NCBI RefSeq assembly: GCF_900142065.1
Contig: NZ_FSRJ01000004.1
Span: forward strand, 558,001-622,000
Length of the DNA: 64,000 nt
Direction: 5' to 3'
Source: Agromyces cerinus subsp. cerinus
GTDB taxonomy: Bacteria > Actinomycetota > Actinomycetes > Actinomycetales > Microbacteriaceae
Shown here one piece after another: positions 28,480 to 30,602 of this stretch (positions within the stretch are counted from its first letter, which is position 1; each line of letters opens with the position of its first letter). The notes under the pieces were generated by a model. The model searched no databases and was not told the DNA's origin. It worked only from the letters and a program-made list of their open reading frames with translations. Made by a program: the position numbers and the translations under genes.

Positions 28480-29142
28480 TCAGTGCACGACGGCGAGCAG
28501 CACGCCCACGGCGATGAACAGCGTGCCGAAGACACCGTTCAGCACGCGCTGGCCGCGCACCGAGCGGGTGAACCGCCGCAGGCTGTGGGCAGCCACCGCG
28601 AAGAAGCCCCACATCACGATCACGTCGACGACCACGACGGTCAGGCCGACGATCAGGTACTGCGGCAGGAGCGGCAGCTCCGGGCGGATGAACTGCGGCA
28701 GGAACGCGAGGAAGAAGACGATGGCCTTGGGGTTCAGGAGGTTCACCCAGAGACCCCTTCGGAACATCGACCAGCGCGACTCGGCGCCGGCGTTCGGCGC
28801 CGGCCGCGCGTCATCCGTCTCGTCCTCGTGATCGTCGTCGGCGGCGGCCGGCTGCTGCGGCTTCGCGAGCAGTTGCCGGATGCCGAGGTACACGAGGTAG
28901 GCGGCGCCCGCGTAGCGGATGATCTCGAAGGCGACGGGCGACCCGGCGACGAGCACTCCGAGACCGGCGGCGACGATCAGGATGTGCACGACGAGGGCGG
29001 CCTGCTGGCCGAGGATGCCCCAGATCGAGCGCCGGAACCCCACGTTCAGGGAGTTGCCCATCGTGTTGATCGCGCCCGCGCCCGGGGTGAAGCTGATGAC
29101 GAAGCAGGCGGCGAGGAGCGTCGCCCAGAGCGAGAGTTGCAC
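28480..29142 (-). CDS. LysE family translocator
   Basis: The 220-residue membrane protein belongs to the LysE/RhtB amino-acid exporter family. It has the N-terminal helix with the family motif FVISFTPGAGAINTMGNSL, the second-helix AYLVYLGIRQLL, and FRRGLWVNLLNPKAIVFFLAFLPQF after an acidic cytoplasmic loop (DDDHEDETDD). The loop of about 30 residues rich in Asp/Glu/Ala is longer than usual. The start is placed at GTG 29142 because a TACGCT hexamer ends 6 bases upstream and the membrane segment begins immediately. It faces nhaA across 165 bases. The exported amino acid is unknown. Confidence 0.88.
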   Translation of the reverse strand: MQLSLWATLLAACFVISFTPGAGAINTMGNSLNVGFRRSIWGILGQQAALVVHILIVAAGLGVLVAGSPVAFEIIRYAGAAYLVYLGIRQLLAKPQQPAAADDDHEDETDDARPAPNAGAESRWSMFRRGLWVNLLNPKAIVFFLAFLPQFIRPELPLLPQYLIVGLTVVVVDVIVMWGFFAVAAHSLRRFTRSVRGQRVLNGVFGTLFIAVGVLLAVVH

Positions 29143-29148
29143 TGCACC

Positions 29149-29154
29149 AGCGTA
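29149..29154 (-). promoter_or_regulatory. -10 hexamer of lysE (leaderless)
   Basis: TACGCT on the minus strand ends 6 bases before GTG 29142; it settles the start codon of this gene. Confidence 0.5.
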
Positions 29155-29188
29155 GGCGCGGCGATCGGCCCCGACCGTCGGCCGCACG

Positions 29189-29194
29189 TAGACT
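29189..29194 (+). promoter_or_regulatory. Likely -10 of nhaA
   Basis: TAGACT lies 113 bases before the nhaA ATG. Transcription from about 29201 would begin just at the structured leader. Confidence 0.45.
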
Positions 29195-29200
29195 GCCCTG

Positions 29201-29307
29201 AGGAGTGCCGGGAAGTCTGGTCGGCCGACGGGAGACCGTCGTCATCGTCCCGCCTTGTCGTGCGCGCTTCTCATGCAGCTCGTGCACGTGACTTCCTGGA
29301 GTCCGAT
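29201..29307 (+). promoter_or_regulatory. Structured 5' leader of nhaA, candidate cation riboswitch
   Basis: The roughly 107-base leader holds GCCGGGAAGTCTGGTCGGC (29208-29226), then CGACGG-GAGA-CCGTCG, a 6-bp stem closed by a GNRA tetraloop (29226-29241). GACTTCC at 29290-29296, directly before the GGAG ribosome binding site (29298-29301), is exactly complementary to GGAAGTC at 29211-29217; alternatively GACT (29290-29293) pairs with AGTC (29300-29303), covering the site. Two exclusive pairings of this kind are what a translational switch needs. Upstream of a Na+/H+ antiporter the obvious comparison is with the nhaA-I and nhaA-II motifs (reported lithium/sodium sensors). I cannot align to those models by hand. 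Confidence 0.55.
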
Positions 29308-30507
29308 ATGAACTTCCTCCGCTCCGAGCGCTGGGCCGCCGCCCTCCTCCTCATCGCCGCCGTGCTCGGCCTCCTGGTCGCGAACCTCTCGTTCGGGCCG
29401 GCGCTCATCGAGCTCAAGAACGCGCACATCGACCTGCCGTGGCTCGGCCTCGACCTGTCGGCCGGCCACTGGATCAGCGACGGGCTGCTCGCGATCTTCT
29501 TCTTCATCGTCGCGGTCGAGCTGAAGCGCGAGCTCGTCATCGGCGAGCTCAACAGCCTGTCGAAGGCCCTACTGCCGGCGATCGCCGCGGTCGGCGGGGT
29601 CGTCGTGCCCGCCCTCATCTTCTTCGCCTTCACGGCCGGCACCGACACGGTCGACGGATGGCCCATCCCCACGGCGACCGACATCGCCTTCGCCCTCGGG
29701 GTGCTCGCCATGTTCGGCACCTGGATCCCGACGCGCGTGCGGGTGTTCCTGCTCGCCCTGGCCGTGCTCGACGACCTCATCGCGATCCTGATCATCGCCT
29801 TCTTCTTCACCGCCGACGCGAACCTCGCGTCGATCGGCTTCGCCGGCATCGCGATCGCACTGTTCGGCGCGGTCAGCCGCATGATGAAGCCCCGCTCGGC
29901 GTGGATCCTCTCACGCAAGCCGCAGTGGCCGATCGTGCTCGTGCTGGTCGTGCTCGGCGCACTCGCGTGGTACTTCGTCTACCAGTCGGGCGTGCACGCG
30001 ACGATCGCGGGCGTCGCCCTCGGCCTCGTCATGGCACGTCGGCCCGGCGGCCGGGCCGTGCACGCGCTCGAGCCGTGGTCGAACGGGGTGATCCTGCCGC
30101 TGTTCGCGTTCTCGGCTGCGATGGTCGCCGTGCCGCAGGTGCAGCCGAGCGAACTCGACCCGGCGTTCTGGGGCATCCTCATCGGACTTCCGGTCGGCAA
30201 GATCATCGGCATCATGGTGGCGGGCGGCCTCGGCGCGCTCGTGGTGCGGCGCCGCGCCGGGATTCCGCTCACCCTCGGCGACCTGTTCGTCGTCGGCGCG
30301 CTCGGCGGCATCGGCTTCACCGTGTCGCTGCTCATGAACGAACTCGCGTTCGTCGGGCTGCCCGAGGTCGCCGATGAGGGCACGCTCGCCGTGCTGCTCG
30401 GCTCGGGGGTCGCGATCGTCGTCTCTGCGATCGTCGTGAGCCTGCGCTCGCGCCACTACAAGCGGCACGGCGGTCACGCCGGCGTCGGCGGCGCGTTCTC
30501 GCGCTGA
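29308..30507 (+). CDS. nhaA: Na+/H+ antiporter NhaA
   Basis: NhaA exchanges internal Na+ or Li+ for external protons. The 399-residue membrane protein has about 12 helices and the key motifs: FFIVAVELKRELVIGEL, PIPTATDIAFALGVLAMFG, the paired aspartates of the ion site in ALAVLDDLIAILIIA, and the C-terminal GGIGFTVSLLMNELAF. Compared with E. coli NhaA the C-terminal tail is short and basic. The ATG at 29308 is preceded by GGAG six bases upstream, within a leader that can fold in alternative ways. A repeat element follows the stop codon. Expression is probably tied to cation level. Confidence 0.95.
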   Translation: MNFLRSERWAAALLLIAAVLGLLVANLSFGPALIELKNAHIDLPWLGLDLSAGHWISDGLLAIFFFIVAVELKRELVIGELNSLSKALLPAIAAVGGVVVPALIFFAFTAGTDTVDGWPIPTATDIAFALGVLAMFGTWIPTRVRVFLLALAVLDDLIAILIIAFFFTADANLASIGFAGIAIALFGAVSRMMKPRSAWILSRKPQWPIVLVLVVLGALAWYFVYQSGVHATIAGVALGLVMARRPGGRAVHALEPWSNGVILPLFAFSAAMVAVPQVQPSELDPAFWGILIGLPVGKIIGIMVAGGLGALVVRRRAGIPLTLGDLFVVGALGGIGFTVSLLMNELAFVGLPEVADEGTLAVLLGSGVAIVVSAIVVSLRSRHYKRHGGHAGVGGAFSR

Positions 30508-30520
30508 GGGGCACCGCGGC

Positions 30521-30602
30521 TTCGGAGATCTGCGCGATTTCGGAGATCTGCGCGATTTCGGGCCCGCCCGCCGGCTCGGCTCCGAACGTGCGCAGGTCAC
30601 CG
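30521..30602. repeat. Intergenic direct repeats of TTCGGAGATCTGCGCGAT downstream of nhaA
   Basis: Two exact 18-base copies lie back to back (30521-30538 and 30539-30556), followed by a partial third TTCGG. A degenerate inverted copy (GCGCAGGTCACCG) ends at 30602, so the unit can fold back. The 25-base stretch from 30521 matches 25777-25801 at about 21 positions. It starts 14 bases after the nhaA stop. Confidence 0.75.

Follow-up and report, generated by a model that had tools for sequence, protein, structure and literature searches.

The leader of nhaA in the window (the whole stretch of 64,000 nucleotides that was analysed) carries a copy of a short conserved element that can be read as a candidate riboswitch class, probably sensing Na+, in which folding of its stem, P1, would correspond to the gene being on. 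On the comparison of sequences, this reading is given a probability of roughly 0.6. Conservation, placement, the association with genes, compensation in P1, the non-canonical covariation and the alternative partners are seen in the sequences themselves, whereas we infer where transcription starts, in which direction the switch works, that a ligand binds directly and which ligand it is. The conserved core is the 25-mer at 29202-29226 and not the GAGA hairpin beside it, and the window leader is one copy of a wider element. Beyond what a first, sequence-only reading of this leader had described, the element is spread over the phylum and into the Chloroflexota, stands before many cation-transport genes, has pairing partners that are specific to lineages and, in some copies, forms part of a terminator. 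The broader claim that this is a new Na+ riboswitch class of ~25 nt counted from the first transcribed base, present Actinomycetota-wide and in part of the Chloroflexota and controlling much of their Na+/H+ antiport, is more tentative and is put at somewhat short of even odds. The parts of the locus are the following.

29189..29194, + strand: predicted -10 box TAGACT, from the sequence, 18 nt before the GCCG of P1
~29202, + strand: predicted mRNA 5' end, from the likely position of the -10 box
29202..29226, + strand: conserved core motif GGNGNGCCGGGAAGNCUGGUCGGCN, a 25-mer matching model R1 at 41.7 bits (E 3.6e-7)
29206, + strand: position -1, in non-canonical covariation with position 20 (29226); U.C in the window copy
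29207..29210, + strand: P1 5' strand GCCG, from compensatory changes
29211..29221, + strand: loop GGAAGNCUGGU, 11 nt, nearly invariant in the comparison of copies
29222..29225, + strand: P1 3' strand CGGC, from compensatory changes
29226..29241, + strand: P2 hairpin CGACGG-GAGA-CCGTCG, 6-bp stem and GAGA loop, found in most genus leaders with variable sequence
29290..29299, + strand: anti-motif GACTTCCTGG; its possible pairing with 29208-29217 covers the first GG of the ribosome binding site
29298..29301, + strand: Shine-Dalgarno (SD) site GGAG, from the sequence; 6 nt separate GGAG from the ATG
29308..30507, + strand: nhaA, Na+/H+ antiporter (PF06965, E 8.8e-101), with its ATG at 29308

The divergent neighbour of nhaA encodes a LysE-type translocator, and directly 3' of nhaA CGGAGATCTGCGCGATTT is repeated head to tail (window 30523-30558). 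For the leader, the sequence-only reading had proposed that mutually exclusive pairings lie beside the ribosome binding site of a Na+/H+ antiporter gene, and the sequence comparisons lend support to this layout. GGAAGTC (29211-29217) and GACTTCC (29290-29296) are indeed exact complements; with one G.U pair allowed, CCGGGAAGTC (29208-29217) and GACTTCCTGG (29290-29299) form a 10-bp helix that takes in the GG of the GGAG site. When the RNA is folded from its predicted start at 29202, the minimum-energy structure contains this 10-bp helix and also pairs GGA (29202-29204) with UCC (29302-29304). A 7-bp exact complement arises by chance in 5% of shuffles within the last 30 nt and in 9% within the whole remaining leader, and the corresponding figures for the 10-bp helix are 2.4% and 3.8%. 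By itself, the pairing in the window is modestly beyond chance; its conservation goes far beyond chance. The fold of the window leader, with z-scores of -0.8 to -1.6, is not significant alone, which would suit a local coincidence in which a G+C-rich leader folds by chance, an explanation refuted by the comparative evidence (conservation, the nhaA set, covariation and terminators).

The 6-bp stem with its GAGA loop, also pointed out in that reading, is present at 29226-29241 and was followed within the genus only, where covariation is seen in most leaders (pair columns 30-37: GC 9, CG 5, UG 2, AU 1, other 1, gap 3). These counts come from alignment A2, comprising 21 of the 28 genus leaders (omitted were L047, L051, L055, L058, L062, L063 and L064), and a P2-like hairpin is absent by eye in L051, L058 and L063. 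A further hairpin between GACT (29290-29293) and AGTC (29300-29303) exists as described, but nothing in the analysis supports a role for it. The pairing partners recur in related nhaA leaders; GACTTCC was found again in seven of the 27 genus loci listed, in addition to the window. A transcription start downstream of 29217, which had been named as evidence against the switch, is not indicated, since the likely -10 box TAGACT puts the predicted start near 29202; a consensus scan for sigma-70 -35/-10 pairs called none at this box.

Membership in the families with which the leader had been compared at the outset was not borne out. The covariance models of nhaA-I (Li+-I, RF03057), nhaA-II (Li+-II, RF03038), Na+-I (DUF1646) and the cobalamin riboswitch gave no match in 29050-29400 even at E<=10, where cmscan returned only snoZ6 (E 0.66) and gntR-DTE (E 8.7), both below cut-offs. 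At gathering level, Rfam 15 yielded tRNAs only in the window, and likewise in 34 distinct relatives' loci. By covariance model, the element falls outside the known nhaA and sodium classes, and the suggestion that it could be a distinct class gains weight, with no Rfam 15 family matching. The accessible parts of PMC9646797, PMC9337991, PMC11109978, PMC3765725 and PMC8632094 contain no description of the motif. In the open literature, searching by exact sequence gave a single paper, on mouse mast cells, and a looser sequence search gave unrelated titles among the 20 listed of 325, so that an earlier description may still lie in subscription papers, preprints or supplementary alignments.

About a quarter of the Actinomycetota genomes sampled (79 of 296) contain the 19-mer GCCGGGAAGTCTGGTCGGC with no more than one mismatch, the reversed-pattern control being found in one genome. 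When two mismatches are allowed, every one of the 60 genus genomes has a match, some of these matches possibly being due to chance, and a wider pattern matches 264 of 394 class genomes (control in 21 genomes). A scan of named genomes gave at least 119 DNA stretches with the motif, and among the 80 matches listed 77 are from Actinomycetota, two from Chloroflexi MAGs and one from Mesorhizobium. The Mesorhizobium match (L126), which lacks both a promoter box and an assigned gene and resembles coding sequence by eye, was judged to be chance. Because selection on the motif was to be avoided, sampling was also anchored on the NhaA protein, with a set chosen by Pfam profile from 99 genomes of the order, 81 of which gave a match (115 rows). 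Scores were obtained for 109 of the 115 rows, omitting the window's own row, the partial row L396 and four second or C-terminal fragments; the motif precedes 56 of these 109 nhaA genes (scores 18-21 of 21, in 51 genomes), and the remaining 53 upstream regions score at most 15, with a reverse-strand maximum of 16. Model R1 was built from 44 chosen 25-mers (alignment A1) out of 81 distinct ones, among others without L395 (which lacks GGNG), L343 (with a GGGACG loop and mispaired CGGG), L185 and L052. The next-best R1 score in the window is 16.1 bits, leaving one strong match only. R1 matches occur in 12 of 151 Chloroflexota genomes, the seed genome included, and the motif is conserved across two phyla, Actinomycetota and Chloroflexota.

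Some stretches carry divergent motif copies, one per strand, ~130-150 bases apart in L086, L135 and L145 and ~800 bases apart in L095. Another stretch (L177) holds three copies, one of them before a gene with a SpoIIE domain, which suggests a wider signalling regulon in that organism.

The placement of the motif relative to the promoter is nearly constant. GGNG upstream of P1 is 98-99% conserved in 265 copies (267 less two dropped for short or duplicate upstream sequence), though it was absent from the search pattern, and it is kept in 55 of the 56 copies of the protein-anchored nhaA set. A TAnnnT box starts at -20 to -17 relative to P1 in 179 of the 265 copies, compared with 5 of 265 in a control window. 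This fixed distance indicates that the transcript probably starts at the first G of GGNG, and the motif is by prediction probably a 5'-terminal mRNA element; the chosen start codon follows the motif at a median of 41 nt. In two loci with Mrp-type genes (L012 and L013), only ~9 and 20 nt separate the motif from the apparent start codon, loop position 12 has G in place of U, and an SD site is not clearly visible by eye.

Such constant spacing to the -10 box, together with the dyad shape of GCCGggaAGNCTggtCGGC, could also be expected of an imperfect DNA operator at +1 bound by a dimeric repressor, and the changes seen in P1 preserve the dyad as well. This operator is strongly disfavoured and considered very improbable. 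An antisense TAnnnT near the matching offset is found in 1 of 265 copies, terminators are made from the motif, and complementary words lie beside the SD site. Position -1 and position 20 avoid the symmetric Watson-Crick combinations, which argues against a symmetric operator, and the copies do not present symmetric half-sites indifferent to RNA structure.

The reading as a folded RNA draws on compensatory change. A search of 394 genomes for P1 variants with an altered 5' strand, in which the 3' strand was almost unconstrained (its last base not being G), returned 13 matches, and all seven with a promoter box carry the compensating change (L400, L401, L402, L405, L406, L409 and L411), this split having been made by inspection after the sequences were seen. 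The uncompensated variants (L403, L404, L407, L408, L410 and L412) are without a -10 box and were judged to be chance; two of them, L407 and L408, adjoin repeated palindromes of the type ACCGTCCGGACGGTACAGT, operator-like in look. In A1, where the 100% pairing of P1 applies to the chosen rows only, both-sided changes occur in 6 cells, compared with 0.5 expected from shuffles. U.G and C.A wobble pairs are isosteric, and it is these two that dominate at -1/20 among the 265 copies (U.G 106, C.A 65, U.C 28, A.A 20, U.A 13, A.G 12, C.C 5, C.G 4, others 12). After thinning to 231 copies, U.G and C.A together reach 155 against 88 expected and Watson-Crick combinations 14 against 83, with p = 5e-30 for the 2x2 table, which is not a strict probability as the copies are related. 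The protein-anchored set (n=56) behaves similarly, with 31 against 17 expected for U.G plus C.A and 2 against 17 for Watson-Crick combinations, and the type at -1/20 differs even between copies of one stretch (L086, L089, L135 and L177). Pairing of the variable base of GGNG with the 3' flank gave a weak signal only, which came from position 20. Judged from these comparisons, the motif is one that acts at the RNA level.

Two further candidates were rejected. The reading of the motif as an upstream ORF (VPGSLVG) was discarded, since the base at position -1 often destroys the start codon and any of the four bases can stand at position 10. For a trans sRNA target, a 16-mer search of the organism's own genome returned one exact place and five at 2 mismatches, so that no second near-complete complementary locus is evident.

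The genes that follow the motif were typed in 267 copies by similarity to Pfam-typed representatives. NhaA is the most frequent (151), followed by CPA (19), Mrp-like (11), an APC-type permease (7, two of its three representatives being without a Pfam match), CBS (7), ABC ATPase, CitMHS/ArsB, DUF2254 and alpha/beta hydrolase (5 each), NhaB (4), PPDK, STAS and NfeD (3 each), P-type ATPase and Crp-like (2 each), and H-PPase, TrkH, Na/Ca exchanger, TrkA and Usp (one each), with no gene assigned in 30 of the 267. A cation transport gene follows 194 of 265 copies (~73%), or 168 of 239 outside the genus loci, and genes without an obvious sodium link (STAS, ABC, alpha/beta hydrolase, PPDK) are also among the followers. 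Ten of the fourteen Chloroflexota matches could be typed, as six CPA exchangers, one partial CPA, two NhaA and one CitMHS. The gene set centres on sodium and cation transport, and what is found before it is a conserved structured RNA in the 5' leaders of functionally related genes, as expected of a riboswitch. The motif would join NhaA, Mrp, CPA, Trk, locally NhaB and others into one candidate regulon.

The same RNA switch could, in principle, respond to Li+, H+ (alkaline pH) or K+ instead of Na+. NhaA and Mrp serve pH homeostasis, a role that would fit such a ligand, and the C.A pair at -1/20 could be protonated. In addition, NhaB, the gene that points to Na+, follows the motif in the window's genus only, where all four copies (L038, L039, L046 and L053) have the same leader type with nhaB replacing nhaA; and the known nhaA riboswitches, according to the accessible part of PMC9646797, sense Li+. 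However, those Li+ motifs are described there as never accompanying nhaB, so the four nhaB copies, though confined to that one genus, favour Na+, and the wider gene set resembles that given for the Na+-I class in the accessible part of PMC9337991. Another ion is rated unlikely, while deserving some weight, and Na+ is preferred as the ligand.

Evidence for a competing structure comes from terminators and from the SD region. A T tract lies within 130 nt in 18 of 344 distinct copies, and in nine of these 18 the arm before the T tract forms 7-11 bp with the motif; shuffled arms would give about 2 at >=7 bp and about 0.1 at >=10 bp. All nine motif-armed intrinsic terminators are in the Chloroflexota set, with the motif as the 5' arm; they come from few lineages, five of the nine being nearly identical. 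The arms are GGAGUGCCGGG and CCCGGCACUCC in L424 and L428 and, with one G.U pair, in L423, L425 and L427; similar arms occur in L422, L421 and L420, and GCGCCGG/CCGGCGC in L073. L426 pairs the other half of the motif (GACUGGU with ACCAGUC, before UUUCUCUUU) and is missing from the terminator scan because the scan was anchored on a later T tract. The fold z-scores are -3.0 to -4.2 for three representative terminator leaders and -2.0 for L426.

In Actinomycetota-dominated data, the 5-mers enriched just before the SD site include CGACC, CCAGG, ACCAG, CCGAC and GACCA, overlapping words that merge into GCCGACCAGG, which is complementary to CCUGGUCGGC in the 3' half of the motif; the enrichment there extends to CTGCC, CCGGA and TCGTC. 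CGA[CT]C occurs near the SD site in 26 of 41 motif-bearing nhaA leaders and in 2 of 32 motif-less ones (p = 4e-7), the near-SD word and duplex analyses covering 73 of the 109 nhaA regions (for the rest, no start with an SD was found, or the SD lay inside the motif), and in 54 of 143 thinned copies compared with 21 in shuffles. Predicted pairing between the motif and the SD region amounts to 5.8 nt against 2.9 in shuffled spacers and peaks about -11 to +2 of the SD site, at 1.6 to 2.2 times shuffled spacers, in models of pairing and accessibility that take in 129 of the 231 thinned copies (those with a recognised SD and a leader of 38-130 nt). Close to the SD site, total duplex energy equals that of shuffles (-13.56 vs -13.45), and specific words alone differ. 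Some leaders of the window's genus instead use GACTTCC, the complement of the 5' half of the motif, as the partner. The same competition seems, from these words and arms, to be built differently in different lineages.

The proposed mechanism begins with the first ~25 nt of the nhaA mRNA, which would form an aptamer-like hairpin made of GGNG, the non-canonical closing pair, P1 and the 11-nt loop. With the hairpin folded, the gene would be on; with the hairpin unfolded, one half of the motif would pair downstream, in Actinomycetota with a partner beside and over the start of the SD site, blocking translation, and in some Chloroflexota with a partner that completes an intrinsic terminator, stopping transcription. 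A ligand, most likely Na+ and possibly Li+, H+ (pH) or K+, would stabilise the folded hairpin and so induce Na+/H+ antiporters and related cation transporters. It is chiefly the terminator copies that speak for this on/off direction. An expression platform exclusive with the conserved fold can be recognised in the sequences, whereas the SD-accessibility model ran contrary: with P1 imposed, mean accessibility falls from 0.443 to 0.351 (n=129 leaders), rising by >0.1 in 14% and falling by >0.1 in 47%, and this drop exceeds that in shuffled spacers (-0.09 vs -0.03, p 9e-5), the opposite of what an on-switch predicts.

P1 has only 4 Watson-Crick pairs and a predicted probability of ~0.01 in equilibrium folds, and the isolated 25-mer folds preferentially into another hairpin, so P1 must be held by a ligand, by tertiary contacts or by a protein. 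This intrinsic weakness of P1 gives room to the main rival, in which a conserved actinobacterial and chloroflexotal protein binds the RNA hairpin and prevents the terminator or the SD-blocking pairing, as proteins of the LicT/SacY family do on RAT hairpins; a small hairpin with a nearly invariant loop and a terminator overlap would suit such a protein. On the other side, no common regulator gene follows the copies (Crp-like in 2 of 267), and the genes concerned suggest a general ion signal. On this analysis, a protein-bound hairpin appears rather improbable, and a ligand-binding RNA that probably senses Na+ is the reading retained.

If that reading is true, the class would hinge on the non-canonical U.G/C.A pair, and the motif would be a minimal RNA for the study of monovalent ion recognition, offering a direct, cheap test of sodium sensing in these bacteria. 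To our knowledge, an aptamer of ~25 nt would rank among the smallest, and few Na+ sensors of gene expression are known.

The motif can be compared with several known systems. LicT/SacY antiterminators bind RAT hairpins in sugar operons; like these, the motif is a short hairpin mutually exclusive with an intrinsic terminator, but it has cation transport genes and mostly SD-adjacent partners. The dauA motif, a three-stem junction before STAS genes in Streptomyces, and nqrA-II, a proposed Na+-related candidate of Pasteurellaceae, are both described in the accessible part of PMC11109978. Three copies of the present motif also precede STAS genes, and nqrA-II has four stems where the motif has one; both are set apart from the motif by those descriptions only. 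Li+-I and Li+-II stand, like the motif, before nhaA, and the accessible part of PMC9646797 reports for a tested example that expression of a translational fusion goes up under Li+; they never accompany nhaB there, whereas the motif precedes nhaB in four copies of one genus. The Na+-I class, with 308 examples and transcription termination assays in the accessible part of PMC9337991, where many further Na+-sensing factors are expected, is, like the motif, a leader RNA found ahead of Na+/H+ antiporters and other genes linked to sodium, and the motif's set of Mrp, CPA, Na/Ca exchanger and PPase resembles that of Na+-I. Unlike Na+-I, the motif consists of one 4-bp stem in ~25 nt and occurs in Actinomycetota and Chloroflexota, and, if the proposed reading is true, its distribution would far exceed that of Na+-I.
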